Shown here: positions 7,523 through 49,249 of the stretch, in pieces
How positions within the stretch are numbered: the first letter of the stretch is position 1
Layout: the number at the start of each line of letters is the position of its first letter
Origin: Thermodesulfovibrionia bacterium
GTDB lineage: Bacteria > Nitrospirota > Thermodesulfovibrionia > JACRGW01
DNA: 50,424 nt
Assembly: GCA_919902995.1 (NCBI GenBank)
Contig: CAKKSD010000005.1
Coordinates: 7,796-58,219, forward strand
Direction of reading: 5' to 3'
Notes under the pieces: generated by a model
The model's database searches: none
What the model was told of the DNA's origin: nothing
What the model saw: only the letters and a program-made list of their open reading frames with translations
Made by a program: the position numbers and the translations under genes

Positions 7523-7578
7523 TCTTTAAGTCCTTATCTCTTAACTCCCAAACTCCTAACTCTGAACTCTGAACTCTT
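7523..7578. repeat. Heptad array (AACTCTG type), 8 units
   Basis: Eight consecutive 7-mers in one phase, drifting from TCTTTAA through AACTCCT to AACTCTG twice and AACTCTT. The array lies directly between the 3' side of riboswitch stem P1 (from 7580) and the btuB start, where an expression platform would normally be. Confidence 0.85.
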
Positions 7579-7579
7579 A

Positions 7580-7810
7580 TTGGCCTGGATAGGTCTTCCG
7601 GCTAAGGGCTTTTGCCTACTCGCTCACCTTCCCATCCCGATATATCGGGACAGTGGTTTTAAAGCAGTTTAAAGCTGAAGGTTAAAAGTTTTAATTCCTT
7701 AGCTCTTAACTTTTCACCGTTTACTGTCTTTATGGGCTTTCGTTCCCTTTGCGGCTGCGGGGCAGCGGGGGTCGGGTCATTTCCTCCCCTCTTCCCTGAC
7801 ATCCAGGCAA
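7580..7810 (-). promoter_or_regulatory. Cobalamin riboswitch upstream of btuB, with internal heptad insert
   Basis: On the minus strand the conserved B12 features appear in order: CCGCAGCCGCAAAGGGAACG, CACTGT, GGGATGGGAAGGTGAG, then the B12-box-like AGCCGGAAGACCTATCCAGG. Closing stem P1 pairs TTGCCTGG (7803-7810) with CCAGGCCAA (7580-7588) with one bulge. The aptamer is about 80 nt longer than the 150-nt copy at 17747-17896. The extra length is a heptad array (7664-7726) between the GAACG segment and the CACTG segment. No terminator hairpin is evident before btuB, so control may act on translation. Confidence 0.88.
7664..7726. repeat. Heptad array inside the btuB riboswitch, 9 units
   Basis: Nine degenerate 7-mers (AAAGCTG, AAGGTTA, AAAGTTT, TTAACTT, TTTACTG and others) in one phase. 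They lie between conserved riboswitch segments, in a position where the second riboswitch of the window has no such sequence. Confidence 0.7.
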
Positions 7811-7880
7811 CCGATTACCTTATTAAATTAAGTATTAATCTTGACTTTAATCTAACTGAATTTGTTCATCTCATATCACA

Positions 7881-9011
7881 TCACCTCCCAACACATAACA
7901 TTTCGATAAATCTTTTCAATATGATTTTATTTTCTCTATGAGATCTTACAGCGATCCTTATATAGGCATTATCAAGCCCCTTGAAGTTAGAGCAATCCCT
8001 CACAAGTATACCTTTCATTTTCAATCTATCGAATATCTCCTTTGAATTATCTATCTTTAATAGATAGAAATTTACTTTAGAAGGTATAAACTTTATTCCG
8101 ATATTTTTAAACCCCTTTTCAAGAATTTGCTTTTCCTCCTTTATTAATTTTAAAGTATTATTTCTATAGACCCTATCCTTAAGCGCCACCAATGCAGCCC
8201 TCTGCGCAAGACTATTTACACTCCAAGGCTCTTTATGTTTCTTTAATCCCTCAATCAGATTTAGTGGAAAGACACCATATCCGATTCTTAAACCTGCGAG
8301 GGCATAAAATTTTGTCATCGACCTCAGTACAATGAGATAGGGATTATCTCTGACAAAATTTATAACAGAACCTTCAGGTGAGAAGTCTATAAAGGCTTCA
8401 TCAACAACAAGGTAGCAATTCTGTCTCCTTGCTTCTTCTGCTATCTTTATTACATTATCTTTTCTAAGCAATAACCCTGTCGGATTATTGGGATTGCATA
8501 GAAATGCCATTTTACATTCTTTCATCGATTCTATAAATTCCTCAGGTTTTATCGTAAACCCATCCTTTTCTTTAAGCTTTAAATGTTCAATCTGTACTCT
8601 ACTTTCTAAAGTCCCTGACCCTTGCCCCTTGACCCTTGGCCCGAGGCTTATTAGAACTGCCCTTTCATATTCAGAAAATGTCGGCATCGGTATAAGCACC
8701 CTTTCTGGTTTCAGTGACCTTACTATCAGATAGATAAGTTCTGTACATCCATTCCCGCATATGATCATTTCGGGATTTATTCCGTGATACTGAGCAAGGT
8801 TTCTCCTCAATCTCCTTGCTTCCGGGTCAGGGTAGTTATAGAGATATTTAAGATGTTTTCGTATCTCTGCTTTTATCTTCTTCGATACTCCCAGTGGATT
8901 TATGGATGAGCTAAAGTCCAGTATCCTTCTTTCCTGTATCTTAAGTTCATCTGCAAGACTATAGATATCTCCACCGTGATCAAAGAGCTGAAAATTATTT
9001 CCAGATCTCAT
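7881..9011 (-). CDS. cobD: Threonine-phosphate decarboxylase / cobalamin-pathway aminotransferase
   Basis: PLP enzyme of fold type I, CobD (Salmonella) family, which makes (R)-1-amino-2-propanol phosphate for the nucleotide-loop linker. Visible motifs: FSSSINPLG near the N-terminus, NYPDPEA, CGNGCTELIYL, NPNNPTG (residues 173-179), VDEAF, and SMTKFYALAGLRIGYG, whose Lys234 should bind PLP. I chose the ATG at 9011 because it makes an ATGA overlap with the cbiB stop; an ATG eight codons upstream is possible. Residues about 122-138 (LGPRVKGQGSGTLESR) are encoded by a 7-bp repeat array and look inserted. Last gene of the cob operon. Confidence 0.88.
   Translation of the reverse strand: MRSGNNFQLFDHGGDIYSLADELKIQERRILDFSSSINPLGVSKKIKAEIRKHLKYLYNYPDPEARRLRRNLAQYHGINPEMIICGNGCTELIYLIVRSLKPERVLIPMPTFSEYERAVLISLGPRVKGQGSGTLESRVQIEHLKLKEKDGFTIKPEEFIESMKECKMAFLCNPNNPTGLLLRKDNVIKIAEEARRQNCYLVVDEAFIDFSPEGSVINFVRDNPYLIVLRSMTKFYALAGLRIGYGVFPLNLIEGLKKHKEPWSVNSLAQRAALVALKDRVYRNNTLKLIKEEKQILEKGFKNIGIKFIPSKVNFYLLKIDNSKEIFDRLKMKGILVRDCSNFKGLDNAYIRIAVRSHRENKIILKRFIEMLCVGR
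8601..8649. repeat. Heptad array (TTGACCC type) inside cobD
   Basis: Seven 7-mers in phase; the core is CTGACCC, TTGCCCC, TTGACCC, TTGGCCC. Translated in frame as cobD residues about 122-138. The same unit type occurs at 10891-10925 in cobQ. Confidence 0.85.
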
Positions 9012-10045
9012 GGCATAACCCTTATATACTGGCACATTACCGTAATAACGAGACCAAATGCAGCGGTAAGCTTTAAAATAGGGATAGCCTTTTCAGTTAA
9101 AATCAGAAAAATATTCTGCCCCTCCCCTTCCGACCTATTTATACCAATATATGGTTTGTTAATTACAATCCCTCCATAAGATAATGGTCCTCCAAGCATT
9201 ATTCCCAACGCCCCTGACATTGCAGCCTCAGGTACACCGCTATTCGGACTTGGATGTTTCTTTCCGTCACTAAGCATTATTTTCATCGAACTGTGACCGG
9301 TGGATAGTGAACGATAAACTATTGTTGATGATACAGCGATAAGAATCCCTGTAATCCTTGCAGGTAAATAATTTACTATATCATCAAGCTTCGCTGCCGC
9401 CCATCCGAAGTATCTGTATCTGTCGTTTTTATATCCTACCATTGAATCCATCGTATTTATCGCCTTATATGTCATTGCAAGGGGTAAACCCCCAATTGCA
9501 AAGTAAAATAAAGGAGCAATTATGCCGTCCGATGCATTCTCGGCAAGGCTTTCGATAGTTGCCTTAAGTATTCCTCTTTCATCGAGTTTTTCTGTATCCC
9601 GACCTACGATATGGTTTAGCCCCTTCCTTGCGTCCTCAATGTTCTTATCTCTGACATGCTTTATAACTACACATGCAGAATCGATAAGGCCTTTAGTAGC
9701 TATCGTTGTCGAAATCAGATAGACAATCACTAAAAGTGATAGAAAATTGATGAGAGATAAGGATCGAGTAAAAAGAAGTGATGAATTAAGAATGTAAAAA
9801 AGAACATATGTAAACCCGACAATTGTCACTACAAGAAAAATACCTGATAGTCTTTCTATCTTTTCTTTCTTCTGCATTTTGCTTTTTAGAAGACCTTCAA
9901 TTTTTGTGGTAAACCATCCTATACCCCTTACTGGATGTGGAAGCCAAAGAGGATCTCCTATACATAGGTCGAGCAGAAATGCGAGTATGAGTAATATGTA
10001 TGGCCTCGATAACAGTGAATAAATATCAATATTGGTTTCAAACAT
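9008..10045 (-). CDS. cbiB: Adenosylcobinamide-phosphate synthase CbiB
   Basis: Integral membrane enzyme (345 aa) that attaches aminopropanol phosphate to adenosylcobyric acid. Family features: DLCIGDPLWLPHPVRGIGWF near the N-terminus, GRDTEKLDERGILKATIES, then ENASDGIIAPLFYFAIGG, and SPNSGVPEAAMSGALGIMLGG near the C-terminus. Several hydrophobic helices span the membrane (for example about residues 13-29, 70-110, 320-340). It overlaps cobD by 4 bp, matching the reaction order, since CobD makes the aminopropanol phosphate that CbiB uses. Confidence 0.94.
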   Translation of the reverse strand: MFETNIDIYSLLSRPYILLILAFLLDLCIGDPLWLPHPVRGIGWFTTKIEGLLKSKMQKKEKIERLSGIFLVVTIVGFTYVLFYILNSSLLFTRSLSLINFLSLLVIVYLISTTIATKGLIDSACVVIKHVRDKNIEDARKGLNHIVGRDTEKLDERGILKATIESLAENASDGIIAPLFYFAIGGLPLAMTYKAINTMDSMVGYKNDRYRYFGWAAAKLDDIVNYLPARITGILIAVSSTIVYRSLSTGHSSMKIMLSDGKKHPSPNSGVPEAAMSGALGIMLGGPLSYGGIVINKPYIGINRSEGEGQNIFLILTEKAIPILKLTAAFGLVITVMCQYIRVMP

Positions 10046-10062
10046 ATTAGCTCCTTTATCAT

Positions 10063-10118
10063 TTTAAACTTAGCATTTAGCATCTCCAATTTTAAATTTA
10101 AAATGTTAAATGCTAATT
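10063..10118. repeat. Heptad array (TTTAAAT/TTAGCAT type), 8 units
   Basis: Eight 7-mers in phase (TTAGCAT twice, then CTCCAAT, TTTAAAT, TTAAAAT, GTTAAAT, GCTAATT). It fills most of the cbiB-cobQ gap and reaches into the cobQ stop codon (10117-10119). Confidence 0.75.
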
Positions 10119-11646
10119 AGCTCTTTAGAAGTTCCTCAATAAACTTCATATCTATATTTTTCCTGATAATGCCTGACCATTTATTCAGGGCATCTTCCCT
10201 TAACCTCGAATAATCCACAACTTTTCCTATTAGCCTCAAACCCTTCTTTTCTCTTATAGAATTTAAAAGTTCTCGCCTGAACAGGTCATTATCAAAGATC
10301 CCGTGGATATATGTGCCCCAGACATTCCCTTTTGAAGAACCGTCCATTATCAGTGATGAGTGACGAGTGACAAGTGACGAGTTTGATGAAATTCTTTTTA
10401 GTCTGAATAAACCAGTTTCACCTTTACTTACTCCCATGTGTATTTCATAGCCCTTTAAGGTATTTTCACTCTGAACTCTTAACTCTGAATTCTTAACTAA
10501 TGTTGCCTCCACCTGTGATGTTATCTTTGTTTTTTTGAGTGTTGTTTCTATACCGAGAAATTCAAATCCCCTTACCACTTTATGATTGCTTTCTACTCCA
10601 AATGGATCGAGTATCTTCTTGCCTATCATCTGATAACCGCCACAGACACCTATGAGTGGAATGTCTTTTTTTATGGCCCGTCTAATGCTATCTTCTATTC
10701 CGTTTTCACGGAGAAAAAGGAGGTCTTCCACTGTATTCTTTGACCCGGGGATTATGAGGAGATCTGCATTTTCAATATCCCCTTCCCTCAATGAATAGAC
10801 AAGATCAACATCAGGTTCGTATAAGAATGGGTCAAAATCTGTGAAGTTAGAAATATACCTCAGTCTAATAACTACAATCTTTATTTTTGTAACCCTTTCC
10901 CCTTTGCCCCTTGCCCCATTAATCCTTTCTATCGGAATACCGTCTTCTTCATGAAGTCCGAGGTCACCGAGATAAGGAATTACGCCTATAACAGGTATGT
11001 TTGTCTTTTCATAAATCATTTTAAGCCCTGGCATCAGGATCTCCATGTCACCCCTGAACTTATTGATAATAAATGCCTTGATATAATCGGCATCTCCATT
11101 GAGGAGTCCGACAGTACCGTAGAATGATGCGAATACACCTCCCTTATCTATATCCCCGATAAGGATCACAGGTGCACCTGTATGACGGGCTACCCTCATG
11201 TTTACAACCTCATCCTTGCAAAGGTTGATCTCTGCAGGGCTTCCAGCCCCTTCGATTATAATGAGATCATGTTTCCTTGAAAGACTTTCATATGCCTCAG
11301 TTACGGCCCTCCAAGCCTCTTTTTTAAACGAATAGTATTCTGTTGCTTTCATATTGGAATGAACCCTGCCATTCATAATCATCTGACAGCTCGATTCACC
11401 CGATGCTTTTAACAATATAGGGTTCATATCGACCGAAGGCTCGATACCTGCTGCCTCTGCCTGAAGTGCCTGTGCACGGCCTATTTCGCCACCCTCTTTT
11501 GTTATGAAAGAATTTAGGGCCATGTTCTGTGCCTTAAAAGGTGCAACATTTACACCTCTGTCCCTGAATATTCTGCACAGACCAGCAACTATGAGGCTCT
11601 TGCCGACACCAGAACCTGTCCCCTGTATCATCAATGCCTTAGACAA
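10117..11646 (-). CDS. cobQ: Cobyric acid synthase CobQ (glutamine-dependent)
   Basis: ATP-dependent amidation of four corrin side chains using glutamine. The N-terminal synthetase domain has the P-loop GTGSGVGKS (residues 9-17) and DIDKGGVFASFYGT. The C-terminal triad-type amidotransferase domain has GVCGGYQMIG with catalytic Cys335 and YIHGIFDND with the His. Start is TTG at 11646, with AGAGGG as SD. Length (509 aa) slightly exceeds the norm, and three segments are encoded by 7-bp repeats: about 242-252, 383-394 and 421-432 (NSSLVTRHSSLI). All look like surface-loop insertions. Mid-operon between cobC and cbiB. Confidence 0.94.
   Translation of the reverse strand: MSKALMIQGTGSGVGKSLIVAGLCRIFRDRGVNVAPFKAQNMALNSFITKEGGEIGRAQALQAEAAGIEPSVDMNPILLKASGESSCQMIMNGRVHSNMKATEYYSFKKEAWRAVTEAYESLSRKHDLIIIEGAGSPAEINLCKDEVVNMRVARHTGAPVILIGDIDKGGVFASFYGTVGLLNGDADYIKAFIINKFRGDMEILMPGLKMIYEKTNIPVIGVIPYLGDLGLHEEDGIPIERINGARGKGERVTKIKIVVIRLRYISNFTDFDPFLYEPDVDLVYSLREGDIENADLLIIPGSKNTVEDLLFLRENGIEDSIRRAIKKDIPLIGVCGGYQMIGKKILDPFGVESNHKVVRGFEFLGIETTLKKTKITSQVEATLVKNSELRVQSENTLKGYEIHMGVSKGETGLFRLKRISSNSSLVTRHSSLIMDGSSKGNVWGTYIHGIFDNDLFRRELLNSIREKKGLRLIGKVVDYSRLREDALNKWSGIIRKNIDMKFIEELLKS
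10352..10386. repeat. Heptad array (AGTGACG type) inside cobQ
   Basis: Five 7-mers in phase (AGTGATG, AGTGACG, AGTGACA, AGTGACG, AGTTTGA). Read in cobQ as SSLVTRH-type residues near 421-432. Same unit as at 13227-13261, 14485-14512 and 16950-16977. Confidence 0.88.
10467..10501. repeat. Heptad array (AACTCTG type) inside cobQ
   Basis: Five 7-mers in phase (CACTCTG, AACTCTT, AACTCTG, AATTCTT, AACTAAT). Translated as cobQ residues about 383-394 (LVKNSELRVQSE). Same unit as 7523-7578. Confidence 0.88.
10891..10925. repeat. Heptad array (TGCCCCT type) inside cobQ
   Basis: Five 7-mers in phase (AACCCTT, TCCCCTT, TGCCCCT, TGCCCCA, TTAATCC). Translated as cobQ residues about 242-252 (INGARGKGERV). 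Confidence 0.82.
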
Positions 11647-11661
11647 TTATCCCTCTACATC

Positions 11662-11732
11662 GTCATGCTGAATTTATTTCAGCATCTCTAAGACCCTGTC
11701 TACGACTCATAGAGAAACGAGTTCAGGGTGAC
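11662..11732. repeat. Palindromic GTCATGCTGAA...GGGTGAC element
   Basis: GTCATGCTGAATTTATTTCA pairs with itself (ATGCTGAA/TTCAGCAT), and the element ends in GAGTTCAGGGTGAC. It lies between cobC and cobQ and supplies the last nine codons of cobC (CHPELVSL and stop). A related half element is at 19916-19941. Confidence 0.7.
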
Positions 11733-12402
11733 AATAATTAATCAATCTTATAACTGGATAATTCCCATGAAATTCAATTATATTTACTGCACCGTAATCC
11801 TGTTCAATCCTGAAAATATTCTCTAATGGTATACCGAGAAACTGGCAAAGGATTATCCTGTTTACACCACCATGGGCAACGACAGCAATATTTTCTCCAT
11901 TATGCGTATCAACAACTCTATCAATCGCATTCATACATCTTTCCTTCACCTCTAATGTATTTTCTCCACCGGTAGGGCTGAATCTAAGAGGATTTCTTGC
12001 CCACGCATTAAAATCTTCCGGATATTTCTCTTTTATTTCATCGAAGCTCATCCCTTCCCACACCCCAAAGTCTCTCTCACGCAATTTATTTATTTTAACA
12101 GGACTTAATCTAAAAGGTTCTGCAATTATTTGAGCGCTCTTCACTGCCCTGCTTAAATCAGAACAGTAGACAGCATCCAATAATCCCCCCTCACCCCCCT
12201 TTAGTAAAGGGGGGATGGGAGGATTATCGTGGGATAAGAGGAAATTAGACCTGTTTCGACTTAATTCAACGATATATTTCGAAGCCTCTTCCATCTGTCT
12301 TATACCCCTTTTAGAAAGCGGTACATCAATCGTCCCCTTATACCGTTTTTCCTCTGAGCCCTCTGTCTCACCGTGCCTTATCAAATAAAGAGTCGTGCCC
12401 AT
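11707..12402 (-). CDS. cobC: Alpha-ribazole phosphatase / histidine phosphatase family
   Basis: Histidine-phosphatase fold enzyme likely removing the 5'-phosphate from alpha-ribazole phosphate or cobalamin phosphate. LIRHGETEG gives catalytic His10; YCSDLSRAVKSA, ERDFGVWEGMSF and VVAHGGVNR (His177) complete the active site. Residues about 56-74 (PPIPPLLKGGEGG core) come from a palindromic repeat inserted in frame, between the helix after KRGIRQ and the SDLSRA strand. The last residues CHPELVSL come from another repeat at 11662-11732. Starts inside cobS (22-bp overlap). Function inferred from family and operon. Confidence 0.88.
   Translation of the reverse strand: MGTTLYLIRHGETEGSEEKRYKGTIDVPLSKRGIRQMEEASKYIVELSRNRSNFLLSHDNPPIPPLLKGGEGGLLDAVYCSDLSRAVKSAQIIAEPFRLSPVKINKLRERDFGVWEGMSFDEIKEKYPEDFNAWARNPLRFSPTGGENTLEVKERCMNAIDRVVDTHNGENIAVVAHGGVNRIILCQFLGIPLENIFRIEQDYGAVNIIEFHGNYPVIRLINYCHPELVSL
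12182..12225. repeat. Palindromic AATCC/GGATT G-rich element inside cobC
   Basis: AATCCCCCC...CCCCCCTTTAGTAAAGGGGGG...GGAGGATT forms nested inverted repeats. It is read through by cobC without a stop. A shorter relative is at 19183-19218. Confidence 0.85.
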
Positions 12403-13259
12403 ATAAGTACCAGTATCAAAAAGATAGCCTCGGTAATTTCACTAATTGCTCCAAGCGTATCTCCGTTAAGTCCGCCAAATCTTTTATTGAAAATATTAAC
12501 CCAGACATGACATAAAAGATACATAACAACAGGTAATGCACCATAAAAGATGTACTGCCTTCCCGGTTTGTAATGACTGAAGAATACAGGTAGTAACATT
12601 ATCAATAGAAAAAGCATTAAGGTAGAAACAATAACTTCTTTAAGTCCAATCCTGCCTATAAATATCCTTCCGAGTCCTTCCTTCATGGATGGCCTGCCAT
12701 GAAACATCGAAATAATCATTGTCCATTTCGGCAGAACAGGCATCAATAAAAGGGATGAATTGTAAGTGAAGGATGAAAATTGAGATAGACCCTGTAAAGA
12801 AAGATATTTAATAGCCAGTACAAAAACTATCGCTAATACACCTGCAGGTCCGGTTGCGCCATCTTTCATTACAGCAAGTCTTTTCTCTCTGTCTGACTCT
12901 GTGTTCCCTTCAGATTTCACTGCAGTTGCATCGAAAGTATCTGCAAGCCCGTCGAGATGGAACCCGCCATTTGATAAGACAAGCACAAGAAGAACCATTG
13001 CCAGAACAAGGTCGTGTGGAAAAACTATACCTGCAATATAGTCTGTAGCCAGAAGCAATGTCCCCTGGATAATCCCTACCACAACAAATGCCTGCGTGCT
13101 CTTTGAAATATCCTCTTCATTAACATTCGTAGTATTTCTGACAGGTATTATCGTCAGGAACTGAATTGCAAGGAGGATCTGCGTGATGCATGATGCATGA
13201 TGAGTAATATGTATTAAGTTATTTTTCTCGTCACTCGTCACTCGTAACTCATCACTCAT
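12381..13259 (-). CDS. cobS: Adenosylcobinamide-GDP ribazoletransferase (cobalamin synthase) CobS
   Basis: Membrane enzyme joining AdoCbi-GDP and alpha-ribazole. Conserved [14 protein letters not shown], then [16 protein letters not shown] (metal-binding Asp residues), [17 protein letters not shown], and C-terminal [16 protein letters not shown]. About six membrane helices. The first 27 residues ([12 protein letters not shown]...) are encoded by a heptad array and are not family sequence; the family normally starts at the ILLAIQF segment, but no ATG, GTG or TTG is in frame there, so the repeat-encoded start at 13259 seems to be used. It overlaps the cobT stop by 8 bp and cobC by 22 bp. Confidence 0.92.
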
Positions 13260-13261
13260 TT
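13185..13261. repeat. Heptad array spanning the cobT stop and cobS start, 11 units
   Basis: Eleven 7-mers in unbroken phase. The unit changes from GATGCAT (twice), GATGAGT, AATATGT, ATTAAGT, TATTTTT to CTCGTCA (twice), CTCGTAA, CTCATCA, CTCATTT. The array supplies the cobT TGA stop and the cobS ATG start. Confidence 0.9.
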
Positions 13262-14304: not shown

Positions 14305-14324
14305 GATGCCTCCTTATGTTTAAT

Positions 14325-16586: not shown

Positions 16587-17644
16587 TTCGAGACACCATT
16601 TAAATATCCGTCCATCTCCTCTATCCCCTCAACTATCCTTGGACCGAGCCTGTGGAGACGATCGCTCATATAAAAAACTGCATCCTTTTTGACTGCTGTC
16701 ACCATCGATATTTTCCTCAGAAGTCCATCAGAGACATCCTTCATGTTCATATTTCCTATCCCGATGAAGATTATATCCGGGTCTTGATAAATAATTTCTT
16801 CTATCGAATATTTCGGGTATGGCACTTTAGCCTTTGAGGCTATATTTTGAGCGCTGAGCAGTGTTACTACATCATCCATGGCAGTCCCCGGGCCTGCTAC
16901 AATCAGAGGTTCAGGCCAGATGATGAAGAGGATCCTCTTTTTGGGTGGCGAGTGACGAGTGACGAGTGACGAGTTCTTATATTTACTTGTCTCTCGTCTC
17001 TTGTCTCTGAATTTATTAATAGCTTCTTCTATCCTATTTGCAAGCTTATCCGCTCTTTCCTTTACTCCCAGTACTGACCCCATTTCCCTGATCCCCTGTG
17101 GCAGTTCTGAAAGTCGTCTCGCTCTGAATACATAGGTCTTTACATTAAGTGAACGGAGTCTATCTCCAAACTCCTTCGGGTTTCCATCCGTGGTCATAAG
17201 TACAATATCTGGTTTTAATGAAACAACTGTCTCAAGTGATGGATTCACCATTCCTCCAATTTTTGGCTTTTTCTTTGCCTCCTCAGGATAATCGCAGTAG
17301 GTAGTTACGCCTACAAGTCTGGCCTCGAGTCCAAGGGCATAGACTATCTCTGTTATGCTCGGAGCCAGGGATACAATACGCTCTGGTGGTTCACCTGCAA
17401 ATGTAAGAGGTACAAATTTAAAATTTAAAATTAAACATGCAAAAATAAAATTCAAAGTCCAGAAAATTGTCATTCCGTGCTTGACACGGAATCCAGTTCC
17501 CTTTTTATTAGTTTCCTGCTTTTGGAAAGACGGCACATGGATTCCTGCTTCCGCAGGAATGACAATGAGGGGATTTCTATACTCCTTTTTGCTATTTGTA
17601 GCATGCGGGGTTTGATTTGTAATTTTAATCTTTGCTTTTTTCAT
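16583..17644 (-). CDS. btuF: Corrinoid substrate-binding protein BtuF with repeat-derived N-terminus
   Basis: Periplasmic binding protein of the helical-backbone class. The mature family domain starts near residue 84 with RIVSLAPSITEIVYALG, then VGVTTYCDYP and PDIVLMTTDGNP. The 57 residues before Met58 are encoded by heptad and palindromic repeats (PAEAGIHVPSFQKQ is typical of the latter). A secretion-type hydrophobic run (TIFWTLNFIFACLILNF) follows Met58. Two starts are possible: ATG 17644 with SD GAGAGA, or ATG 17473, created inside the palindromic repeat, with no SD. Residues about 212-232 (SSLVTRHSPPK and before) come from another heptad array. First gene of the operon. Confidence 0.87.
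   Translation of the reverse strand: MKKAKIKITNQTPHATNSKKEYRNPLIVIPAEAGIHVPSFQKQETNKKGTGFRVKHGMTIFWTLNFIFACLILNFKFVPLTFAGEPPERIVSLAPSITEIVYALGLEARLVGVTTYCDYPEEAKKKPKIGGMVNPSLETVVSLKPDIVLMTTDGNPKEFGDRLRSLNVKTYVFRARRLSELPQGIREMGSVLGVKERADKLANRIEEAINKFRDKRRETSKYKNSSLVTRHSPPKKRILFIIWPEPLIVAGPGTAMDDVVTLLSAQNIASKAKVPYPKYSIEEIIYQDPDIIFIGIGNMNMKDVSDGLLRKISMVTAVKKDAVFYMSDRLHRLGPRIVEGIEEMDGYLNGVSK
16950..17012. repeat. Heptad array inside btuF, two unit types in one phase
   Basis: Nine 7-mers: GAGTGAC three times, GAGTTCT, TATATTT, ACTTGTC, TCTCGTC, TCTTGTC, TCTGAAT. Phase is kept across the unit change. Encodes btuF residues about 212-232. Confidence 0.9.
17411..17466. repeat. Heptad array (TTAAAAT type) encoding the btuF hydrophobic segment
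   Basis: Eight 7-mers in phase (TACAAAT, TTAAAAT twice, TAAACAT, GCAAAAA, TAAAATT, CAAAGTC, CAGAAAA). On the coding strand this AT-rich array reads as the hydrophobic run LNFIFACLILNFKF, that is, the signal-peptide core. Confidence 0.65.
17469..17563. repeat. Palindromic repeat with GTCATTCC/GGAATGAC ends, copy 1
   Basis: The left end GTCATTCCGTGCTTGACACG is itself palindromic (TTCCGTG/CACGGAA). The right end holds ATTCCTGCTTCCGCAGGAAT, then GAC. A second copy, inverted, is at 41765-41853. Non-coding MITE-like size; here it is read as btuF residues 28-58 and supplies Met58. Confidence 0.85.
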
Positions 17645-17697: not shown

Positions 17698-17746
17698 TAA
17701 TCTCTTAATCCTCACCCTCTTAGCCTCGAAGACTTCGTGAGGTTAC

Positions 17747-17896
17747 TTATCCAGACAGGTTTTCTGGCTATCGGATCTTCCTACTCCCCTCACCTTCCCA
17801 TCCTGAATAATCAGGAAAGTGGTGCTTAGGGTTTCGTACCCGAATACAGCGGCGGGTCCGCTCCCGATTTTCACGGGATTCCCTTTAACTGGATAA
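17747..17896 (-). promoter_or_regulatory. Cobalamin riboswitch upstream of btuFCD-cob
   Basis: A 150-nt aptamer. Stem P1 is a perfect 8-bp pairing of TTATCCAG (17889-17896) with CTGGATAA (17747-17754). Conserved parts on the minus strand: AAAGGGAATCCCGTGAAAAT, GGACCCGCCGCTGTA, CACCACTTTCCTG, ATGGGAAGGTGAGGGGAGTA, and the B12 box AGCCAGAAAACCTGTCTGG. With its downstream terminator it should turn off corrinoid import and assembly genes when B12 is plentiful. Confidence 0.93.
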
Positions 17897-17917
17897 TTAC
17901 TATTCGATTGTAAGTTA

Positions 17918-27046: not shown

Positions 27047-27904
27047 TCATGCATTCAGGTAATCCCAGAGCCCATCCTTCCAATTCCTCATCCTATGACC
27101 TGTTAAGTGGAAATACATTTCATTGCTTAATACGGAATAGGCAGGCCTGGTTGCAGGTCTTTTTGAGTCCTTAGAGGTTATTGGTATAATATTTATATTC
27201 TCTTTCATCTTTATTTTGATAATTTCCTTTGCATAATCATACCAAGAACACTCCCCGCTATTACTACAATGGACTATGCCCTTTGCTCCTACATTTATCA
27301 AACTTTCTATCGCATCTGAAAGGTCAACTGTATATGTAGGAGATCCGACCTGATCATTAACAACCCTCAGTTCATCCTTTTCGTCAGATAGTCTCAGAAT
27401 AGTGTCTATAAAATTTTTGCCGTTTTTACCAAATAGCCATGATGTACGAACAATAAGAGTCTGGAGTCTTGGGTCTGAAGTATGTAGTTTTAAAATTTCC
27501 CTTTCGCCCTCGAGTTTGGATTGTCCGTAATTGTTGATTGAATGAGGTTCGTCGTCTTCTCTATATGGCTCTCTCCTCACTCCATCAAAAACATAATCTG
27601 TACTTATATGTATAAGCTTTGCACTTGTTTCTTTACATCCTAACGCCACATTTCTTACCCCATCCCTGTTTACTTTAAATGCCTTATATCTTTCGGTTTC
27701 GCATGCATCCACATCAGTAAAAGCAGCAGTATTTATCACAATGTCCGGAGAAATACTTTTTATCTCCCTCAACGCTCCTTCTTTATCAGTTATATCAAAA
27801 TCATCTATATCTACACCAATCACATTATTACTAATAGAAAGCCTTTTCTCCAAGTCCATTCCAAGCATTCCCCTTGCACCTGTTATAAGAATACGCATAT
27901 CCAA
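27047..27904 (-). CDS. rfbD: dTDP-4-dehydrorhamnose reductase RfbD
   Basis: Last step of dTDP-L-rhamnose synthesis, 285 aa. RILITGARGMLGMDLEKRL NAD(P)-binding start, NTAAFTDVDACETE, STDYVFDG, and active-site YGQSKLEGE. Residues about 139-150 (SDPRLQTLIVRTSW region) coincide with a short heptad array at 27456-27490; the RTSWLFG motif is kept. Gene order rfbA-rfbC-rfbB-rfbD is complete here. Confidence 0.94.
   Translation of the reverse strand: MDMRILITGARGMLGMDLEKRLSISNNVIGVDIDDFDITDKEGALREIKSISPDIVINTAAFTDVDACETERYKAFKVNRDGVRNVALGCKETSAKLIHISTDYVFDGVRREPYREDDEPHSINNYGQSKLEGEREILKLHTSDPRLQTLIVRTSWLFGKNGKNFIDTILRLSDEKDELRVVNDQVGSPTYTVDLSDAIESLINVGAKGIVHCSNSGECSWYDYAKEIIKIKMKENINIIPITSKDSKRPATRPAYSVLSNEMYFHLTGHRMRNWKDGLWDYLNA
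27456..27490. repeat. Heptad array (GGAGTCT type) inside rfbD
   Basis: Five 7-mers in phase (AGAGTCT, GGAGTCT, TGGGTCT, GAAGTAT, GTAGTTT). Same family as the array in folC (33309-33350). Confidence 0.75.
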
Positions 27905-32707: not shown

Positions 32708-34021
32708 TTATACCCTCAGTCTCTCCATACTCTTTCCAATACCTTTAATTTCTCCTACTGCATAAAGAGAGCCTGTAATACATATAAGGTCATTGCTGCA
32801 GGTCCTGCTGACAGCATAGTCAAGTGCATCAGACACCTTCCCTATAGCCTTTACCCTCTGATTATACCTCTCTGCTTCCATGGCAAGAAATGAGGTTGAT
32901 GCAGCCCTCTCATAATCTGGTGCAGTCACTATTAACTCCCAGGCAAGTGGGGCAAGGACGCTTAGAAATTTTCTTATATCCTTATCTTTCATTAATCCTA
33001 CAATTAAAAAAAGTCTGTCGTGTTCTGGGAGAAATATCTTTTCCAGTGCCTTCCTGAGGTATTGCGCGGCTCCTTCATTATGGGCACCATCGAGGAGTAT
33101 AGTAGGATTCCTGCCTATTATCTCGAGCCTTGCTTCCCATATCGTATCCCTAAGTCCTTCCCTTACAGCCTTTTCTTCCATCTTGATCTCATTGTTGATT
33201 ATCTCTGTTGTAGCAATTGACAGAGAAGCGTTCATTATCTGGTACGCACCTAACAGAGGGATTTCAAGACCTTGGTATATCTTTTTTATTCCATAATAAT
33301 CAAAAACCTGAGTTTTGAGTCTAGAGTCCTGAGTCTGGAGTCTTTCCTCTACCCTGAAATCCCTTCCGGATTTATAAAGTTTGGACCCAGTATTTTTACA
33401 TCGCTCTTCAATAATTCCGTTTACCTCAGGAAAACTATCTGCCATAACAACAGGGATACCTTTTTTTATTATTCCAGCCTTTTCTCTTGCTATCTCTGTC
33501 AGGGTCTTTCCCAGAAATTCCTGATGGTCATAACTGATATTTGTAATTATAGAAACCAGCGGTGTTATTACATTTGTAGCATCAAGCCTTCCTCCCATTC
33601 CCACTTCTACTACTGCAATATCAACATTCTCTTCAGCAAAATATTTAAATGCCATAACAGTCGTGAATTCAAAAAATGTCGGCAAAGGATGGTTGTGAGT
33701 TAATATTTTTGATTTGAGTGTCGAGGTTATATAGGCAACTCTCTCTTCAGAAATAGGAACATTATTTATTCTTATTCTTTCTGTAAAGCTTACCAGATGG
33801 GGCGAGGTATAGAGTCCAACCTTTAAGCCTGAGGACTGGAGGATAGATGCCATCATTGCAGCAGTTGACCCCTTGCCATTAGTTCCAGCTATATGAATGG
33901 ATCTAAAACGCATGTGGGGATTCCCAACGATCTCAAGCAAAGAGATGGTATTAATCAATCCTAACTTTATCCCGAATCTCTGCAAATTGTAGAGGTAATC
34001 TACAGCTTCTTTATACTCCAT
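32708..34021 (-). CDS. folC: Folylpolyglutamate / dihydrofolate synthase FolC
   Basis: Mur-ligase-type ATPase (437 aa) that adds glutamate to folates. P-loop GTNGKGST at 46-53, TSPHLVSFTERIRIN, VEVGMGGRLDATNVI, TNISYDHQEFLGKTL, and LLDGAHNEGA. Residues about 225-238 (ERLQTQDSRLKTQV) are encoded by a heptad array and sit between the two domains' strands, likely a surface loop. First gene of the folC-lptD-rfb-ugd-uxs group. Confidence 0.95.
   Translation of the reverse strand: MEYKEAVDYLYNLQRFGIKLGLINTISLLEIVGNPHMRFRSIHIAGTNGKGSTAAMMASILQSSGLKVGLYTSPHLVSFTERIRINNVPISEERVAYITSTLKSKILTHNHPLPTFFEFTTVMAFKYFAEENVDIAVVEVGMGGRLDATNVITPLVSIITNISYDHQEFLGKTLTEIAREKAGIIKKGIPVVMADSFPEVNGIIEERCKNTGSKLYKSGRDFRVEERLQTQDSRLKTQVFDYYGIKKIYQGLEIPLLGAYQIMNASLSIATTEIINNEIKMEEKAVREGLRDTIWEARLEIIGRNPTILLDGAHNEGAAQYLRKALEKIFLPEHDRLFLIVGLMKDKDIRKFLSVLAPLAWELIVTAPDYERAASTSFLAMEAERYNQRVKAIGKVSDALDYAVSRTCSNDLICITGSLYAVGEIKGIGKSMERLRV
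33309..33350. repeat. Heptad array (TGAGTCT type) inside folC
   Basis: Six 7-mers in phase (TGAGTTT, TGAGTCT, AGAGTCC, TGAGTCT, GGAGTCT, TTCCTCT). Translated in frame as folC residues about 225-238. Confidence 0.85.
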
Positions 34022-40657: not shown

Positions 40658-40660
40658 TAC

Positions 40661-41641: not shown

Positions 41642-41649
41642 CTTACTAA

Positions 41650-41684
41650 AATTTAAAATTCAAATATCAAAACTCAATATTGTT
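41650..41684. repeat. Heptad array (AATTCAA type) after fabH
   Basis: Five AT-rich 7-mers in phase (AATTTAA, AATTCAA, ATATCAA, AACTCAA, TATTGTT), beginning 9 bp after the fabH stop. The rest of the 235-bp gap holds the palindromic element at 41765-41853. Confidence 0.6.
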
Positions 41685-41853: not shown

Positions 41854-41876
41854 GAAAAAAGACGACAGGAGGTTTT

Positions 41877-43034: not shown

Positions 43035-43037
43035 TGT

Positions 43038-43128
43038 AGATCCAAGATGCATGATCCAAGATACATGATATAAAAGAGGTATTAACATCATGCATCGTGA
43101 ATCTTGCATCATGAATCCTGAAGTATGA
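43038..43128. repeat. Heptad array filling the acd-etfB gap, 13 units
   Basis: Thirteen 7-mers in unbroken phase from AGATCCA, AGATGCA, TGATCCA through AAAGAGG, TATTAAC to ATCATGC, ATCGTGA, ATCTTGC, ATCATGA, ATCCTGA, AGTATGA. Halves resemble reverse complements of each other (ATGATCC / GGATCAT-like). The etfB ATG (43125) is in the last unit. Confidence 0.9.
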
Positions 43129-43913: not shown

Positions 43914-45100
43914 TCAGGGTTAAAAGAGAAATCTGTACAGGCTGTGAGATATGTATCAGCAGCTGTCCCTATGCTGCTATAGAGATGATTGAGGATAAGG
44001 CGATTATTACAGAAATGTGCAATCTTTGCAAGGCCTGCCTGTCCTCCTGCCCTGAGGGGGCAATTGAAGAAATAGTTGAAAATTCCGAGTTCCGAGTTCC
44101 GAGTTCCGAGTTAACTCAATATAAGGGGGTCTGGGTATTTGCAGAACAAAGGAGAGGAAAACTCCACGACGTCTCATTAGAACTCTTAGGAGAAGGTAGG
44201 CGACTTGCTGATACCCTTTCAACAGAACTAGCAGCCGTTATCATAGGAAGTAAAATAGAGAAAGAGGCAGACATCCTTATAACCTACGGTGCAGATAAGG
44301 TCTTTATTGCTGATGACCCTTTTCTTTCTGATTTTCATGATGATTCCTATGGCCATATACTTGCCGGACTTATTGAAAAAGAGAAACCAGAAATACTACT
44401 TTCAGGAGCCACATCTATTGGTAGGTCATTTATACCAAAGGTAGCAGCGAGATTGAGGACAGGTCTTACGGCAGATTGTACAAGCCTAGACCTAAATGGA
44501 AGAACCCTTCTACAGAAAAGGCCTGCCTTTGGAGGAAACATTATGGCTGTTATAATATGCCCGAATAGAAGGCCACAGATGGCGACAGTAAGGCCTAAGG
44601 TATTCAAGAAGCCAATCCCGAAAAGTGGTAGAAAGGGTAAAATCGTAAAAGTTCCTGTCACGGAAGATATCCCTTTAAGGACAAAAACTCTTGAATTTGT
44701 AAAAGACCTTACAAGCATAGTAAATATCTCTGATGCAGATATAATAATCGCTGGTGGAAGGGGTCTTGGCGAAGCAAAGAATTTCAGATTGCTGGAAGAA
44801 CTCGCAGATGTTTTTGGAGGGGCTATAGGTGCATCAAGAGCCGCCGTAGATGCAGGATGGATTCCCTATGCACATCAGATTGGACAGACAGGAAGGACTG
44901 TCTCGCCGAGACTTTATATAGCCTGTGGCATTTCAGGTGCAGTCCAACATCTTGTAGGAATGCAATCTTCTGATATAATTATAGCTATAAACAAAGACCC
45001 AGGTGCACCTATATTTAATGTGGCTACTTATGGAGTTGTTGGAGATCTTTTTGAAGTAATACCTCCACTTACTAAAAAGATAAAGGAGTTTAGAAGTTGA
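43910..45100 (+). CDS. etfA: Electron transfer flavoprotein alpha subunit with N-terminal 2[4Fe-4S] ferredoxin
   Basis: 396 aa. An N-terminal ferredoxin domain (1-55) has CTGCEICISSCPYAAI and CNLCKACLSSCPEGAI, two complete cluster motifs. The EtfA domain follows (from about 70: GVWVFAEQRRGKLHDVSLEL), with FAD-binding GGRGLGEAKNFRLLEELA, GASRAAVDAGWIPYAHQIGQ and CGISGAVQHLVGM. The ferredoxin type is known from anaerobes in which ETF connects to Fe-S electron carriers. Residues about 58-69 (NSEFRVPSSELT) joining the two domains are encoded by a heptad array. Confidence 0.95.
   Translation: MIRVKREICTGCEICISSCPYAAIEMIEDKAIITEMCNLCKACLSSCPEGAIEEIVENSEFRVPSSELTQYKGVWVFAEQRRGKLHDVSLELLGEGRRLADTLSTELAAVIIGSKIEKEADILITYGADKVFIADDPFLSDFHDDSYGHILAGLIEKEKPEILLSGATSIGRSFIPKVAARLRTGLTADCTSLDLNGRTLLQKRPAFGGNIMAVIICPNRRPQMATVRPKVFKKPIPKSGRKGKIVKVPVTEDIPLRTKTLEFVKDLTSIVNISDADIIIAGGRGLGEAKNFRLLEELADVFGGAIGASRAAVDAGWIPYAHQIGQTGRTVSPRLYIACGISGAVQHLVGMQSSDIIIAINKDPGAPIFNVATYGVVGDLFEVIPPLTKKIKEFRS
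44081..44115. repeat. Heptad array (AGTTCCG type) inside etfA
   Basis: Five 7-mers in phase: AATTCCG, AGTTCCG three times, AGTTAAC. The most regular coding array of the window; encodes the linker between the ferredoxin and ETF domains. Confidence 0.92.
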
Positions 45101-46029
45101 AAATTGCTTTTATCTTTCCAGGACAGGGTTCACAATATGTGGGTATGGGAAAGGATCTACATGAAAACTTTCCTGAAGTAAGAGACCTTTATGTAAAGGC
45201 AAATGAAGTTCTAGGGTATGATCTTAAAACATTATGTTTTTATGGCCCAGAGGAAAAATTAAACCTTACAGAATATACACAGCCCTCGGTTTTCGTTACA
45301 GATATAGCCGCTCTAAAGGTCGTCGAAGGGACTGGGATAAGGCCATCTGTAGTAGCAGGCCATAGCCTGGGTGAATATTCTGCACTTGTAGCTTCGGGGG
45401 GCATAGATTTCAGTGATGCCCTCAGATTGGTAGTTAAAAGGGGGTTTTTTATGCAGGAAGCGATACCAGAAGGAAAAGGCATGATGGCCGCAATCCTTGG
45501 CCTTGAAACAACTATTGTTGAGAGCATATGCAAAAATGCCTCAACCTTTGGCACAGTTACACCTGCTAATTATAACTGTCCTGGCCAAGTTGTTATAGCA
45601 GGAGAAAAGTTAGCGGTTCAAGAGGCATCAAGATTAGCCAAGGAAAATGGCGCAAAGAGGGTCATTCCGTTACAGGTAAGCGTCCCTTCTCATTCCCCAT
45701 TAATGGTTTATGCAGGGGCTAGGTTAGAAGAAGAGATGGACGGATTAGAAATAAATAGTCTTAATATCCCTTTAGTTAACAACGCAGATGCCAGATTTTT
45801 AACTTCTTCTGAGGATATAAAATTATCTTTAATAAGACAACTAAGCGAACCAGTCCGATGGGAATCATCTATAAGGAAAATCATAGAGTCAGGGATAAAT
45901 ATCTTCATAGAGATCGGACCAGGAAAGGTCCTCTCCGGTCTTCTAAGAAAGATAGATAATAGACTAAAGATTTTTAATGTGGAAGATAAAAAGAGTCTTG
46001 AATACTTAATGGAGGCGTTATGGAATTAG
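45097..46029 (+). CDS. fabD: Malonyl-CoA:ACP transacylase FabD
   Basis: 310 aa. FPGQGSQYVGMGKDL at the N-terminus, catalytic Ser90 in GHSLGEYSALVASG, VSVPSHSPLM with the His. Start TTG at 45097 overlaps the etfA stop (TTGA), with AAGGAG upstream. It resumes the fab cluster after the acd-etf insertion. Confidence 0.96.
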   Translation: MKIAFIFPGQGSQYVGMGKDLHENFPEVRDLYVKANEVLGYDLKTLCFYGPEEKLNLTEYTQPSVFVTDIAALKVVEGTGIRPSVVAGHSLGEYSALVASGGIDFSDALRLVVKRGFFMQEAIPEGKGMMAAILGLETTIVESICKNASTFGTVTPANYNCPGQVVIAGEKLAVQEASRLAKENGAKRVIPLQVSVPSHSPLMVYAGARLEEEMDGLEINSLNIPLVNNADARFLTSSEDIKLSLIRQLSEPVRWESSIRKIIESGINIFIEIGPGKVLSGLLRKIDNRLKIFNVEDKKSLEYLMEALWN

Positions 46030-46760
46030 AAGGTCATATAGCCCTTGTAACAGGTGGCGGACAGGGGATAGGAAAGGCTATATCTTTAACCCTTGCAAAA
46101 TATGGCGCTGATATGATACTCTTTGAGCTTAATTCAGAGAAAGCCGAAGAAGTATCTAAGGATATCTATAGTCTTGGCAGAAAAGCCCTATCTGTTAAGG
46201 TCGACGTTTCTAAGACAGAAGAGGTTGAAGATGGCTTTCGTAAGGCTATCGAGAGCTTCGGCAGGATAGATATCTTAGTCAACAATGCTGGTATAACAAA
46301 GGATGCCCTTATTGTACGAATGAAGGACGAAGACTGGGATAAGGTTATCGAAGTAAATCTGAAAGGTGCATTTTTATGTACAAGGTCTGCTGTAAAGACT
46401 ATGTCTAAACAGAGATATGGTAGAATAATAAATATATCTTCTGTAGTCGCCTTTATGGGTAATCCCGGACAGGTTAATTATGTTGCATCCAAGGCAGGTA
46501 TCGTTGGATTAACAAAAACTGTAGCAAAGGAATATGCAGCAAGGGGGATCACCGTTAATGCTATAGCCCCTGGGTTTATCCAGACATCTATGACCGATGC
46601 ACTTCCTGAACAGGTAAAGGATGTTATGCTTAAAGAGATCCCTCTCGGGAAATTTGGTAGCCCTGATGATGTGGCCAATGTAGTGAGATTTCTTGCATTA
46701 AAGGATTCGGGATATATAACAGGACAGGTTATACATGTAAACGGAGGGATGTATATGTAG
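46020..46760 (+). CDS. fabG: 3-oxoacyl-ACP reductase FabG
   Basis: SDR reductase of 246 aa. TGGGQGIGKAISLTL NADP-binding start, NNAGITKDALIVRMKDEDWD, ISSVVAFMGNPGQVNYVASK with the YxxxK pair, TVNAIAPGFIQTSMTDALPE and GYITGQVIHVNGGMYM. Overlaps fabD by 10 bp. Confidence 0.97.
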   Translation: MELEGHIALVTGGGQGIGKAISLTLAKYGADMILFELNSEKAEEVSKDIYSLGRKALSVKVDVSKTEEVEDGFRKAIESFGRIDILVNNAGITKDALIVRMKDEDWDKVIEVNLKGAFLCTRSAVKTMSKQRYGRIINISSVVAFMGNPGQVNYVASKAGIVGLTKTVAKEYAARGITVNAIAPGFIQTSMTDALPEQVKDVMLKEIPLGKFGSPDDVANVVRFLALKDSGYITGQVIHVNGGMYM

Positions 46761-46762
46761 AT

Positions 46763-46839
46763 GTAAGCTTAGAGTTAAGAGTTAGGAATGCATCGTTTAA
46801 CTTTTAATTTTCGACTTTCAACCTGTAACTTTTATTCTG
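46763..46839. repeat. Heptad array between fabG and acpP, 11 units
   Basis: Eleven 7-mers in phase: GTAAGCT, TAGAGTT, AAGAGTT, AGGAATG, CATCGTT, TAACTTT, TAATTTT, CGACTTT, CAACCTG, TAACTTT, TATTCTG. It ends 2 bp before the acpP SD (GGAGGTG) and fills the gap. Confidence 0.85.
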
Positions 46840-46854
46840 GGAGGTGATTGAAAT

Positions 46855-47100
46855 ATGGCAGTAGAAGAGAAGTCAATCGAACAAAGAGTAAGAAAGATAA
46901 TCTCGGAACAATTAGGAATTGATGAAGATGAGGTTACCCCAGAGGCATCATTTATAGATGATTTAGGGGCAGATTCTTTAGATACCGTTGAACTCGTCAT
47001 GGCTTTTGAGGAGGAGTTTCATATCGAGATTCCTGATGAAGATGCAGAAAAGATCGCAAAGGTCCAAGACGCTATTAATTATATTAAAGAAAAGATTTAA
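46855..47100 (+). CDS. acpP: Acyl carrier protein
   Basis: 81 aa, acidic; phosphopantetheine site Ser41 in [28 protein letters not shown] before ATG. Followed by a terminator-like hairpin before fabF. Confidence 0.98.
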
Positions 47101-47126
47101 ATTTATTTTATTTCACTATTAATCTG

Positions 47127-47170
47127 ATCACCCTCGATATTCATGCCTAAAGGTGTTGAGGGTGATTTTT
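47127..47170 (+). promoter_or_regulatory. Hairpin with T-run overlapping the fabF ribosome-binding site
   Basis: ATCACCCTC (47127-47135) pairs perfectly with GAGGGTGAT (47158-47166) over a 22-nt loop and is followed by TTTTTA. It looks like an intrinsic terminator after acpP, yet the 3' arm GAGGGTG is the only SD for fabF, whose ATG is at 47176. It may lower fabF relative to acpP by termination, by hiding the SD, or both. Confidence 0.8.
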
Positions 47171-47175
47171 AAAAA

Positions 47176-48429
47176 ATGGAGTCAATTCCTAAAAGAAGGG
47201 TTGTTATTACAGGCTTGGGTCTTGTTACGCCCCTTGGAATCGGTGTAGAGAAAAGCTGGGATGCCCTCTGTAATGGAGACTCTGGTGTTTCAAAAATAAC
47301 CCTTTTTGACCCAAAAGACTTACCTGCCCAGATAGCTGCTGAAATTAAGGGTTTTAATCCCTCTGATTGGATCGAACATAAAGAGATAAAAAAGATGGAC
47401 CGGTTCACCCATTTAGCCATTGCAGCAAGTCAGATAGCTATGGATGATTCAGGAGTCAAAATCAGCGAGGAGAATGCAGAAAGAATAGGCGTAATCGTTG
47501 GGTCTGGAATGGGCGGAATGGCAGCCATTGAGTATTATCATACTATTCTCACGGAAAAAGGTCCAAAAAGAATTTCTCCATTCTTTATTCCTATGACAAT
47601 AATAAACCTTGCCTCTGGTCAGATATCTATAAGGTTTGGTGCAAAGGGACCAAACTCTGCACCAGTTACTGCTTGTGCTGCAGGAACTCATGCCATAGGC
47701 GAGTCGTTCAGGATAATCCAGAGGGGAGACGCTGATATCATGATAACCGGGGGGACTGAAGCAGTCATTACACCACTGGCTATTGGAGGTTTCTGTTCAA
47801 TGAAGGCTCTATCCACCCGCAATCATGACCCGAAAAGAGCAAGCCGTCCATTTGATAAAGATAGGGATGGATTTGTCATGGGTGAAGGTGCAGGAATCAT
47901 CGTCCTTGAATCTCTCGAATCTGCACTCAGCAGAAGTGCACGGATATATGCAGAGGTAATTGGATTCGGTATGAGCGGAGACGCATACCATATATCATCC
48001 CCCTCACCTAATGGTGAAGGTGCCGCGAGGTGTATGGCTATTGCATTAAAGGATAGTGGCATAGATCCTTCAGAGATTAATTATATAAATGCCCATGGCA
48101 CATCAACAAAATATGGCGATGAACTCGAGACAAAGGCAATAAAGACTGTCTTTGGCGAACATGCCTATAGACTCAAGGTAAGTTCCACAAAATCTATGAC
48201 AGGTCATCTACTTGGTGCCGCTGGTGGTGTTGAAGCAGTTATCACTGCACTCGCAATAAAGACAGGAATTATCCCACCAACAATAAATCTCGATAACCCT
48301 GATCCAGAATGTGATATCGATTATGTCCCCAATAAAGCCGTAAAGACAAATCCAAAAGTTGCCATGTCTAATTCCTTTGGCTTTGGAGGTACAAATGCCT
48401 GCCTTATCTTAAGGCGTTATGAAGGTTAA
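47176..48429 (+). CDS. fabF: 3-oxoacyl-ACP synthase II (FabF)
   Basis: Elongating condensing enzyme, 417 aa. [20 protein letters not shown] at the N-terminus, catalytic Cys167 in [32 protein letters not shown] and [20 protein letters not shown] with the two His residues, and [13 protein letters not shown]. Its SD is inside the upstream hairpin. Overlaps rnc by 11 bp. Confidence 0.97.
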
Positions 48430-49201
48430 TTTGACTAAAGACTCGATGTTAAAATCTGAAGCTGGAGATTCCGGACAAGATTCAGGAAAGAATTCTTATA
48501 TACCCCCTGAAATAGAAAGAAAAATCCATTATATCTTTCATAAAAAAAATCTCCTCATCGAATCTTTAACACATAAGTCTTACTCAAATGAGCAAAAACT
48601 ACTATATAGCAATGAACGTCTTGAATTCCTCGGAGATGCAGTCCTTAACATGATTATCAGCGATTATCTTATAAAGAGATTTCCAGACTATCCAGAAGGA
48701 GATCTGAGCAAACTTAGAGCAATGATAGTTAATGAAAATGCGCTAGCAAGAATTGCAGAGAGGATAGGACTCGGTAAGGATCTCCTTCTCGGAAAAGGTG
48801 AAGAAATGACAGGAGGGAGAGAAAAGCCTTCCCTTCTTTCAGATGCTTTCGAGGCATTGATTGCTGCCATCTATCTCGATGGTGGCATTAACGAGGCTTT
48901 ATCTTTTGTAAATAAATATTTTGATGAAGAGATTATGATGTCCGTTTCAAAGAGTATTTCCTATGATTTCAAGACAGACCTTCAGGAATACTGTCAGGGA
49001 AAGTTCGGAATACTGCCTAAATACAATGTTGCCAGGGAATCAGGCCCTGACCATAAAAAGATCTTCGAGGTAAGGCTCTTCATAAAGGATGTCCATTACG
49101 GAACAGGAATAGGTAAAACAAAAAAGGAGGCTGAACAGAAAGCTGCAAGGGAATCACTTGAAAGATTAAAAAGAGAAGAAAGTAACTCAATGCAAAATTA
49201 A
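48419..49201 (+). CDS. rnc: Ribonuclease III
   Basis: Double-stranded RNA endonuclease, 260 aa. The RNase III signature [20 protein letters not shown] (residues 65-84, with catalytic Glu69 and Asp73) and [15 protein letters not shown], then a dsRBD at about 185-255 ([15 protein letters not shown] ... [18 protein letters not shown]). The first 28 residues before the family start are extra, polar and probably disordered. The fabF-rnc arrangement is common. The last codons overlap a heptad array. Confidence 0.96.
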
Positions 49202-49249
49202 CAATTAGCATTTTAAATTTTCAATGCTAAATGATAACTTTAAAATGAC
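49187..49249. repeat. Heptad array joining rnc and purM, 9 units
   Basis: Nine AT-rich 7-mers in phase (TCAATGC, AAAATTA, ACAATTA, GCATTTT, AAATTTT, CAATGCT, AAATGAT, AACTTTA, AAATGAC). It contains the rnc stop and both candidate purM start codons (49224 and 49245). Confidence 0.75.

Follow-up and report, generated by a model that had tools for sequence, protein, structure and literature searches.

A 50,424-nucleotide stretch of the draft genome of an uncultured member of the Thermodesulfovibrionia, phylum Nitrospirota (genome G000, contig C5, positions 7796 to 58219; here called the window), carries short tandem arrays of heptamers whose shared feature is a period of 7 bp and not a common sequence. 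The typical array is about 35 bp long and contains four or five units. In our judgment, the best explanation, held with somewhat more confidence than doubt, is that these are arrays resembling the short tandemly repeated repetitive (STRR) sequences of cyanobacteria, and that they evolve by slippage with homogenization of units, by copying from one hairpin arm to the other, and by exchange of alleles through recombination. The host assembly comprises 2.01 Mb in 69 contigs and is 94% complete. Among named sequences, those closest to its CobT come from metagenome assemblies labeled Nitrospirae and Thermodesulfovibrionales, which places the host in the Thermodesulfovibrionia. Statistics for this genome were taken from 446 kb, sampled as stretches together with the window. 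Relatives, which with few exceptions are drafts or metagenome assemblies, were represented by 80 named loci (1.27 Mb, nearly all from Thermodesulfovibrionia), all of them centered on cobT; array densities elsewhere may differ.

The window contained 11 lag-7 tracts (at least 17 matches in 21 positions), against 0.05 expected from second-order Markov controls, and every other lag gave zero or one tract, the harmonic 14 excepted. In the host genome, where lags 2 to 40 were compared, lag 7 yielded 27 strict tracts, its multiples 14 and 21 yielded 15 and 5, respectively, and each remaining lag yielded zero to four; a third-order Markov control of the 446 kb contained no strict lag-7 tract. The excess at lag 7 over controls that an initial annotation of the window had anticipated is thus present, and its restriction to one lag across differing units bears out the proposal that the arrays have the period in common and not the sequence. 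That annotation had listed about 20 arrays of 4 to 13 copies each. At 17 of its 20 coordinates, the expected count in a 50-kb third-order Markov sequence was 0.3 or less (0.1 or less at 14), so these exceed chance, but those at 17611, 7664, and 14485, with expected counts of about 1, 7, and 33, respectively, do not. The measured number of copies per array was 3 to 6, not 4 to 13, with a peak at 4 in the host genome and at 5 in the relatives.

Among the 80 named loci, 242 strict tracts were found at lag 7 and 56 at lag 8, with few at other lags except multiples of 7 and 8. Counted as arrays, the relatives had 418 of period 7, 64 of period 8, few of period 9, and none of period 10. A period that is always seven, as had been stated, therefore describes the host genome, but sister lineages carry a minority of period-8 arrays as well.

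Spacers were enriched for arrays, yet coding arrays formed the majority: 65% of array bases lay in open reading frames (ORFs), which account for 89% of the host sequence. Coding arrays were in frame and occupied linkers, loops, and N termini, giving heptapeptide repeats such as (SLVTRHS)n; gene starts were uncurated, and a few arrays counted as in frame at N termini may in fact lie in spacers. Structured RNA may be a further setting, with a clear heptad array in a cobalamin riboswitch insert of locus L112 and degenerate heptad-like arms in a riboswitch insert of the window; most arrays lay elsewhere.

Orthologs carried arrays at matching protein sites, with different units and with the phase retained. 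Nine pairs of sister genomes were compared (79 to 91% identity over aligned stretches, some genomes being in two pairs), and a fast turnover of arrays between sister genomes was evident, in support of the annotation's interpretation. The unit and length were the same at 24 array sites, the unit had changed at 6, and the other genome had a period-8 array at 6; at the remaining sites, the array was degenerate in 15 cases, was present in one genome only in 20, and had changed in length in 1. The CobD array of L082 is three units longer than that of L075, a difference of 21 bp that keeps the frame and agrees with the prediction of slippage, one of the generators that had been put forward. In one 35-bp array, the final two units changed together in four genomes while the length stayed constant, the ending being GTTAAAA twice in L075 and L079, ATTCAAA twice in L082, and GTTCAAA/GTTCAGA in L132. 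Because one and the same site can hold different units and, in relatives, arrays of a different period, descent of all arrays from a single decayed ancestral repeat is untenable. As a separate observation, period-8 arrays such as (CACCCATT)5 and (AACAGTTT)5 occurred at period-7 sites of sister genomes (L075, L082, L090, L103, L131, and others).

The CobB linker measured 93 to 120 nt including flanks (162 nt in one taxon) and was about equally long with or without arrays, so the arrays there are not simple insertions; in some taxa, small unrelated palindromes were found in this linker instead of arrays. Two CobB arrays of L090 differed in both unit and period from those of its sister L098, and around both arrays L090 resembled L106 or L103 more closely than L098 (one gene, no formal test). 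This mosaic pattern points to an exchange of array alleles by recombination. The idea that unit differences reflect new generation of arrays must be qualified accordingly, as some of the differences between sisters look like exchanged alleles.

The initial annotation had overlooked the inverted pairing of many arrays. In a large minority, two arrays stand in opposite orientation, separated by a gap that ranges from a few base pairs to about 100 bp, and could form an imperfect stem. When each array was compared with its own 120-bp flanks (match score of at least 12), inverted-complement partners were found in 89 of 926 own flanks and in only 10 of 926 flanks of other arrays, whereas direct-orientation partners were found in 27 of 926. 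The nonredundant inverted pairs numbered 54, and complementary heptads on both stem arms are thus a property of a subset of the arrays. Judging from the orthologs compared, the two arms co-vary in sequence: swapping arms between orthologs worsened the match at the CobD site (P = 0.001), at the CobB C-site (P = 0.0055), and over five site pairs together (P < 0.0005). Predicted RNA folds were strong, with z values of about -5, at 16938-17014 (-5.0) and 10060-10120 (-5.4) and moderate at 43030-43126 (-2.7); they were weak or shuffle-like at 13174-13264 (-1.5), at 46760-46830 (-0.7), and for the CobB pair (+0.4).

A total of 466 arrays reduced to 162 canonical units, the commonest of which occurred 18 to 23 times each. 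Many units were therefore found, as the annotation had said in describing different unit groups, but they are not unrelated. In the pooled data, 167 of 269 strict period-7 arrays (62%) had a consensus unit containing TCA or TGA, against a shuffled-unit expectation of 69 (26%), and GTGA/TCAC was fivefold over expectation in the same arrays. Viral contigs agreed, with TCA or TGA in 39 of 74 units versus 17 expected, after the unit used for finding the contigs had been left out. Polarity of the array ends, which was apparent by eye, was not retained as a feature; counts gave only a moderate excess of G.

The arrays were scattered patchily across the Thermodesulfovibrionia. (TTCACTG)3 was present in 23 of 246 Nitrospirota genomes and (GTCACTC)3 in 50 of 231 Thermodesulfovibrionia genomes; since each of these is a single unit, the counts understate the total number of arrays. 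IMG/VR contigs retrieved with (TTCACTG)3 had further period-7 arrays, and the exclusivity of the period extended to viral contigs. A tailed-phage contig with portal, terminase, and tail-sheath genes (L181, IMGVR_UViG_3300031867_000530, positions 1385-11806; GC content, 0.61) had strict heptad arrays at high density, 19 within 14 kb and mostly at gene boundaries, and the composite (TGTGAAA)n-(TTTTCCC)n stood at two such boundaries. A literature search of limited reach found no description of heptamer repeats in Nitrospirota, and the spread of heptads through protein-coding genes across the Thermodesulfovibrionia appears to have been undescribed so far.

The closest known system is the cyanobacterial heptanucleotide repeats, above all the P6b hairpin of Nostoc trnL. 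Among such repeats, heptanucleotides are reportedly the commonest class in most of the bacterial genomes that have been surveyed (PMC4679880, PMC4692102), and both papers cite an earlier proposal that the 7 nt reflect the polymerase contact length. The P6b element of the Nostoc tRNA-Leu(UAA) group I intron contains class I (TDNGATT) and class II (NNTGAGT) heptads, which interchange at one locus, with 7- and 14-nt indels and suspected recombination (PMC4476775). Calothrix has three heptanucleotide families (PMC4692102), and, given both cases, the annotation erred in taking the cyanobacterial unit to be fixed. As in P6b, heptads lie on both stem arms in a subset of the arrays here, and a given locus can change its unit class with period and structure retained, although in the present arrays the period sometimes shifts to 8; several arrays also contain the TGAGT of class II. 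In contrast to P6b, which is a single intron locus of a cyanobacterium, the arrays described here are genome-wide, belong to another phylum, are often coding, and have many more units. Cyanobacterial STRR sequences likewise are degenerate tandem heptamers of several unit families that are dispersed in the genome, but they have been described mainly as intergenic, whereas here coding arrays predominate, with in-frame linker arrays at sites common to orthologs; the co-variation of inverted arms and the TCA bias go beyond those descriptions. The TAACTGA arrays of Beggiatoaceae, whose unit contains TGA, and the GGGAATC arrays of Xanthomonas, some of which form inverted repeats as here, are also dispersed short heptamers, but they have one dominant unit per genome instead of many.

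Rickettsia palindromic elements (RPEs) occur in frame in ORFs. Like RPEs and the system of repetitive extragenic palindromic (REP) sequences and REP-associated tyrosine transposases (RAYTs), the latter with a GTAG or CGTC tag (PMC3733652), the repeats studied here are small and hairpin forming, with palindromes at the identical protein site in orthologs. Unlike both, they have an internal 7-bp period and no fixed consensus, and no RAYT gene is flanked by them; the in-frame position is thus shared with RPEs, but the conserved palindromic consensus is not.

Under the explanation favored here, the processes of slippage, arm copying, and recombination are ones that we infer from the patterns described above. 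Strand slippage and unit-to-unit copying within an array would shift the copy number and homogenize the units, and the sequence would drift while the period is retained. Hairpin-templated copying between arms would maintain their complementarity, and whole arrays with their flanks would pass between lineages via homologous recombination. Frame-preserving changes, such as a gain or loss of three units, would be the only ones to survive in genes, and arrays would persist at unconstrained places, including intercistronic spacers, peripheral riboswitch stems, and the linkers, loops, and N termini of proteins. Several observations weigh against this explanation. Copy numbers peak at 4 to 5 and drop sharply beyond 6, whereas plain slippage predicts a steady fall; coding length limits may contribute to the peak. 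Between some sister genomes, an entire array is different, period included (8 versus 7), an outcome that gradual homogenization does not yield. The evidence for recombination is a mosaic pattern in a single gene, the arm-swap test gave individually nonsignificant results for three of its five site pairs, and the TCA bias is not accounted for by the model. Furthermore, 40 of 41 relatives carried MutS (MutS_I); a mismatch-repair defect therefore does not explain the arrays, and loss of mismatch repair was rejected as their cause.

A dispersing family of elements, in which ready-made arrays or inverted pairs, drawn from a repertoire that the class shares, would reach new places by a transposition-like process, by ectopic recombination, or by phages instead of being generated in place, is a serious possibility but on balance unlikely. 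It would accommodate the limited repertoire of units common to the genomes, the center TATATTTACTTG common to two nonorthologous inverted pairs of the host genome, the identical composite array at two gene boundaries of the phage contig, and, modestly, the last-unit endings ..CTG and ..CGG that recur at different sites. However, neither a target-site duplication nor a clean empty site was found, the near-constant length of the CobB linker speaks against such copying, and two sites within one genome had units only slightly more alike than those of different genomes. The shared center, as CAAGTAAATATAA, was also considered as a family signature and rejected, given that it had two exact places only and that a control pattern matched equally often at three mismatches. 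Y1/RAYT genes were present in all nine array-rich genomes versus 5 of 12 others (P = 0.007, no phylogenetic correction), but 18 Y1_Tnp loci had two weak heptad tracts nearby and no flanking arrays, for which reason a Y1/RAYT transposase was not adopted as the source.

Selection on RNA hairpins would offer another reason for the complementarity of the arms, if arm pairing in mRNA stabilized or regulated transcripts. The co-variation of the arms, the strongest folds, the arrays that fill entire intercistronic spacers (10060 and 43038) or extend the riboswitch domain, and the Nostoc P6b precedent are in keeping with such a role, but many arrays are single, other pairs fold like shuffles (those at 13174 and 46760 and the CobB pair), and orthologs often have no array or an unrelated palindrome, and we consider this function very unlikely to account for the arrays. 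Their exclusive period and short, defined length would suit a dedicated templating enzyme with a 7-nt step, whether a reverse transcriptase, a relative of those in diversity-generating retroelements, or a telomerase-like enzyme. At the search threshold, however, no RVT_1 match was found in the 94% complete host assembly or in the array-bearing genomes G001, G002, G003, G020, and G028; no RNA template was found, and the units vary by site. Templating by a reverse transcriptase, one possible form of the annotation's 7-nt templating activity, is largely refuted by the RVT_1 search, and a templating enzyme of any of these kinds is highly improbable. A further, quite unlikely alternative is that, in Thermodesulfovibrionia and others, an active copying process with a step of 7 to 8 nt and a preference for TCA/TGA would write mirrored arrays into any replicated DNA, including that of phages, and that cells lacking the hairpin nuclease SbcCD would tolerate the arrays. 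SbcD scored above the model cutoff in 18 of 231 Thermodesulfovibrionia genomes, and none of these 18 had (GTCACTC)3, which was present in 50 of all 231 (P = 0.01 when genomes and 0.06 when genera were counted, no phylogenetic correction); this anticorrelation is a lead and not a result.

Bacterial heptanucleotide repeats have been noted before without an established cause, and the arrays described here add to the known cases a genome-wide spread, coding sites, the TCA bias, a period-8 minority, and arrays in phages. For the Thermodesulfovibrionia, a phylogenetic tree would allow the comparison of hundreds of orthologous sites whose arrays differ in unit and occasionally in period (8 versus 7). 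As these sites include coding and spacer DNA, a riboswitch, and phages, the question of why the period is seven becomes testable. In addition, repeat DNA supplies the linkers of ordinary enzymes (CobB and ETF), and as the arrays turn over, the protein sequence is rewritten with the linker length preserved.

Table 1. Heptad arrays, inverted pairs, and riboswitches of the window (window positions; CDS, coding sequence)
Position	Strand	Element	Setting and remarks
7548..7581	-	Heptad array GAGTTCA/GAGTTAG/GAGTTTG	Between cobalamin riboswitch and TonB-receptor gene; ACTCTGAA downstream can pair with TTCAGAGT
7571..7821	-	Cobalamin riboswitch, RF00174	Weak score (34.9 bits); 81-nt peripheral insert
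~7661-7726		Arms of the riboswitch insert	Degenerate, heptad-like, inverted; within chance as direct heptads (7664 of the initial annotation)
8613..8647	-	Heptad array	Translated in CobD-type aminotransferase (CDS 7881-9035); many orthologs have arrays at this site
10060..10120	.	Inverted pair TTAGCAT / ATGCTAA	Fills CobB-CbiB intercistronic spacer
10347..10383	-	Array GTCACTC	Within CobB (CDS 10117-11646), in frame; variable loop that precedes DGS
10465..10496	-	Array GAGTTCA	Within CobB, in frame; variable loop that precedes GYEIHMG
10892..10920	-	Array GGGGCAA	Within CobB, in frame; CbiA-GATase_3 interdomain linker
13178..13260	.	Inverted pair GATGCAT / GAGTGAC	Arms 13178-13208 and 13223-13260; cobT-cobS junction, read as CobS N terminus
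16942..17010	.	Inverted pair	Arms 16942-16977 and 16985-17010; in frame in BtuF-like gene (CDS 16583-17644); center TATATTT, recurring in a nonorthologous element on contig C30
17410..17439	-	Array, ATTTTAA type	Near N terminus of BtuF-like ORF
17737-17907	-	Second cobalamin riboswitch	
27456..27477	-	Short array GAGTCTN, 3 copies	In RmlD-family gene
33308..33344	-	Array GAGTCTN	In Mur-ligase-like gene (CDS 32708-34021)
41647..41671	+	AT-rich array	Begins 5 bp past stop of CDS 40661-41641
43038..43122	.	Inverted pair GATCCAA/GATGCAT and ATCATGC/ATCATGA	Arms 43038-43070 and 43086-43122; fills spacer between CDS 41877-43034 and 43125-43913
44079..44115	+	Near-perfect array GAGTTCC, 4.3 copies	In frame, Fer4-ETF domain linker (CDS 43910-45100, ETF-alpha-like)
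46766..46830	.	Inverted pair: short GAGTTAA array, then TAACTTT heptads	Immediately after CDS 46020-46760

The left half of the window is a cobalamin locus, with genes for a TonB receptor, a CobD-type aminotransferase, CbiB, CobB, CobS, CobT, and a BtuF-like protein. At the site that corresponds to 16942-17010, the orthologs in L094, L097, L108, and L116 have unrelated palindromes (CCCCCC..GGGGGG, GGGGCGTATTGCAATACGCCCC, and CTCAGGCGACTCGCTGAG), and this site of the BtuF-like protein appears repeatedly to take small repeats in frame. A long tandem repeat with units of 78 bp and 462 bp, detected by Tandem Repeats Finder at positions 1-1324 of the window, is unrelated to the heptads and is probably coding on the minus strand.

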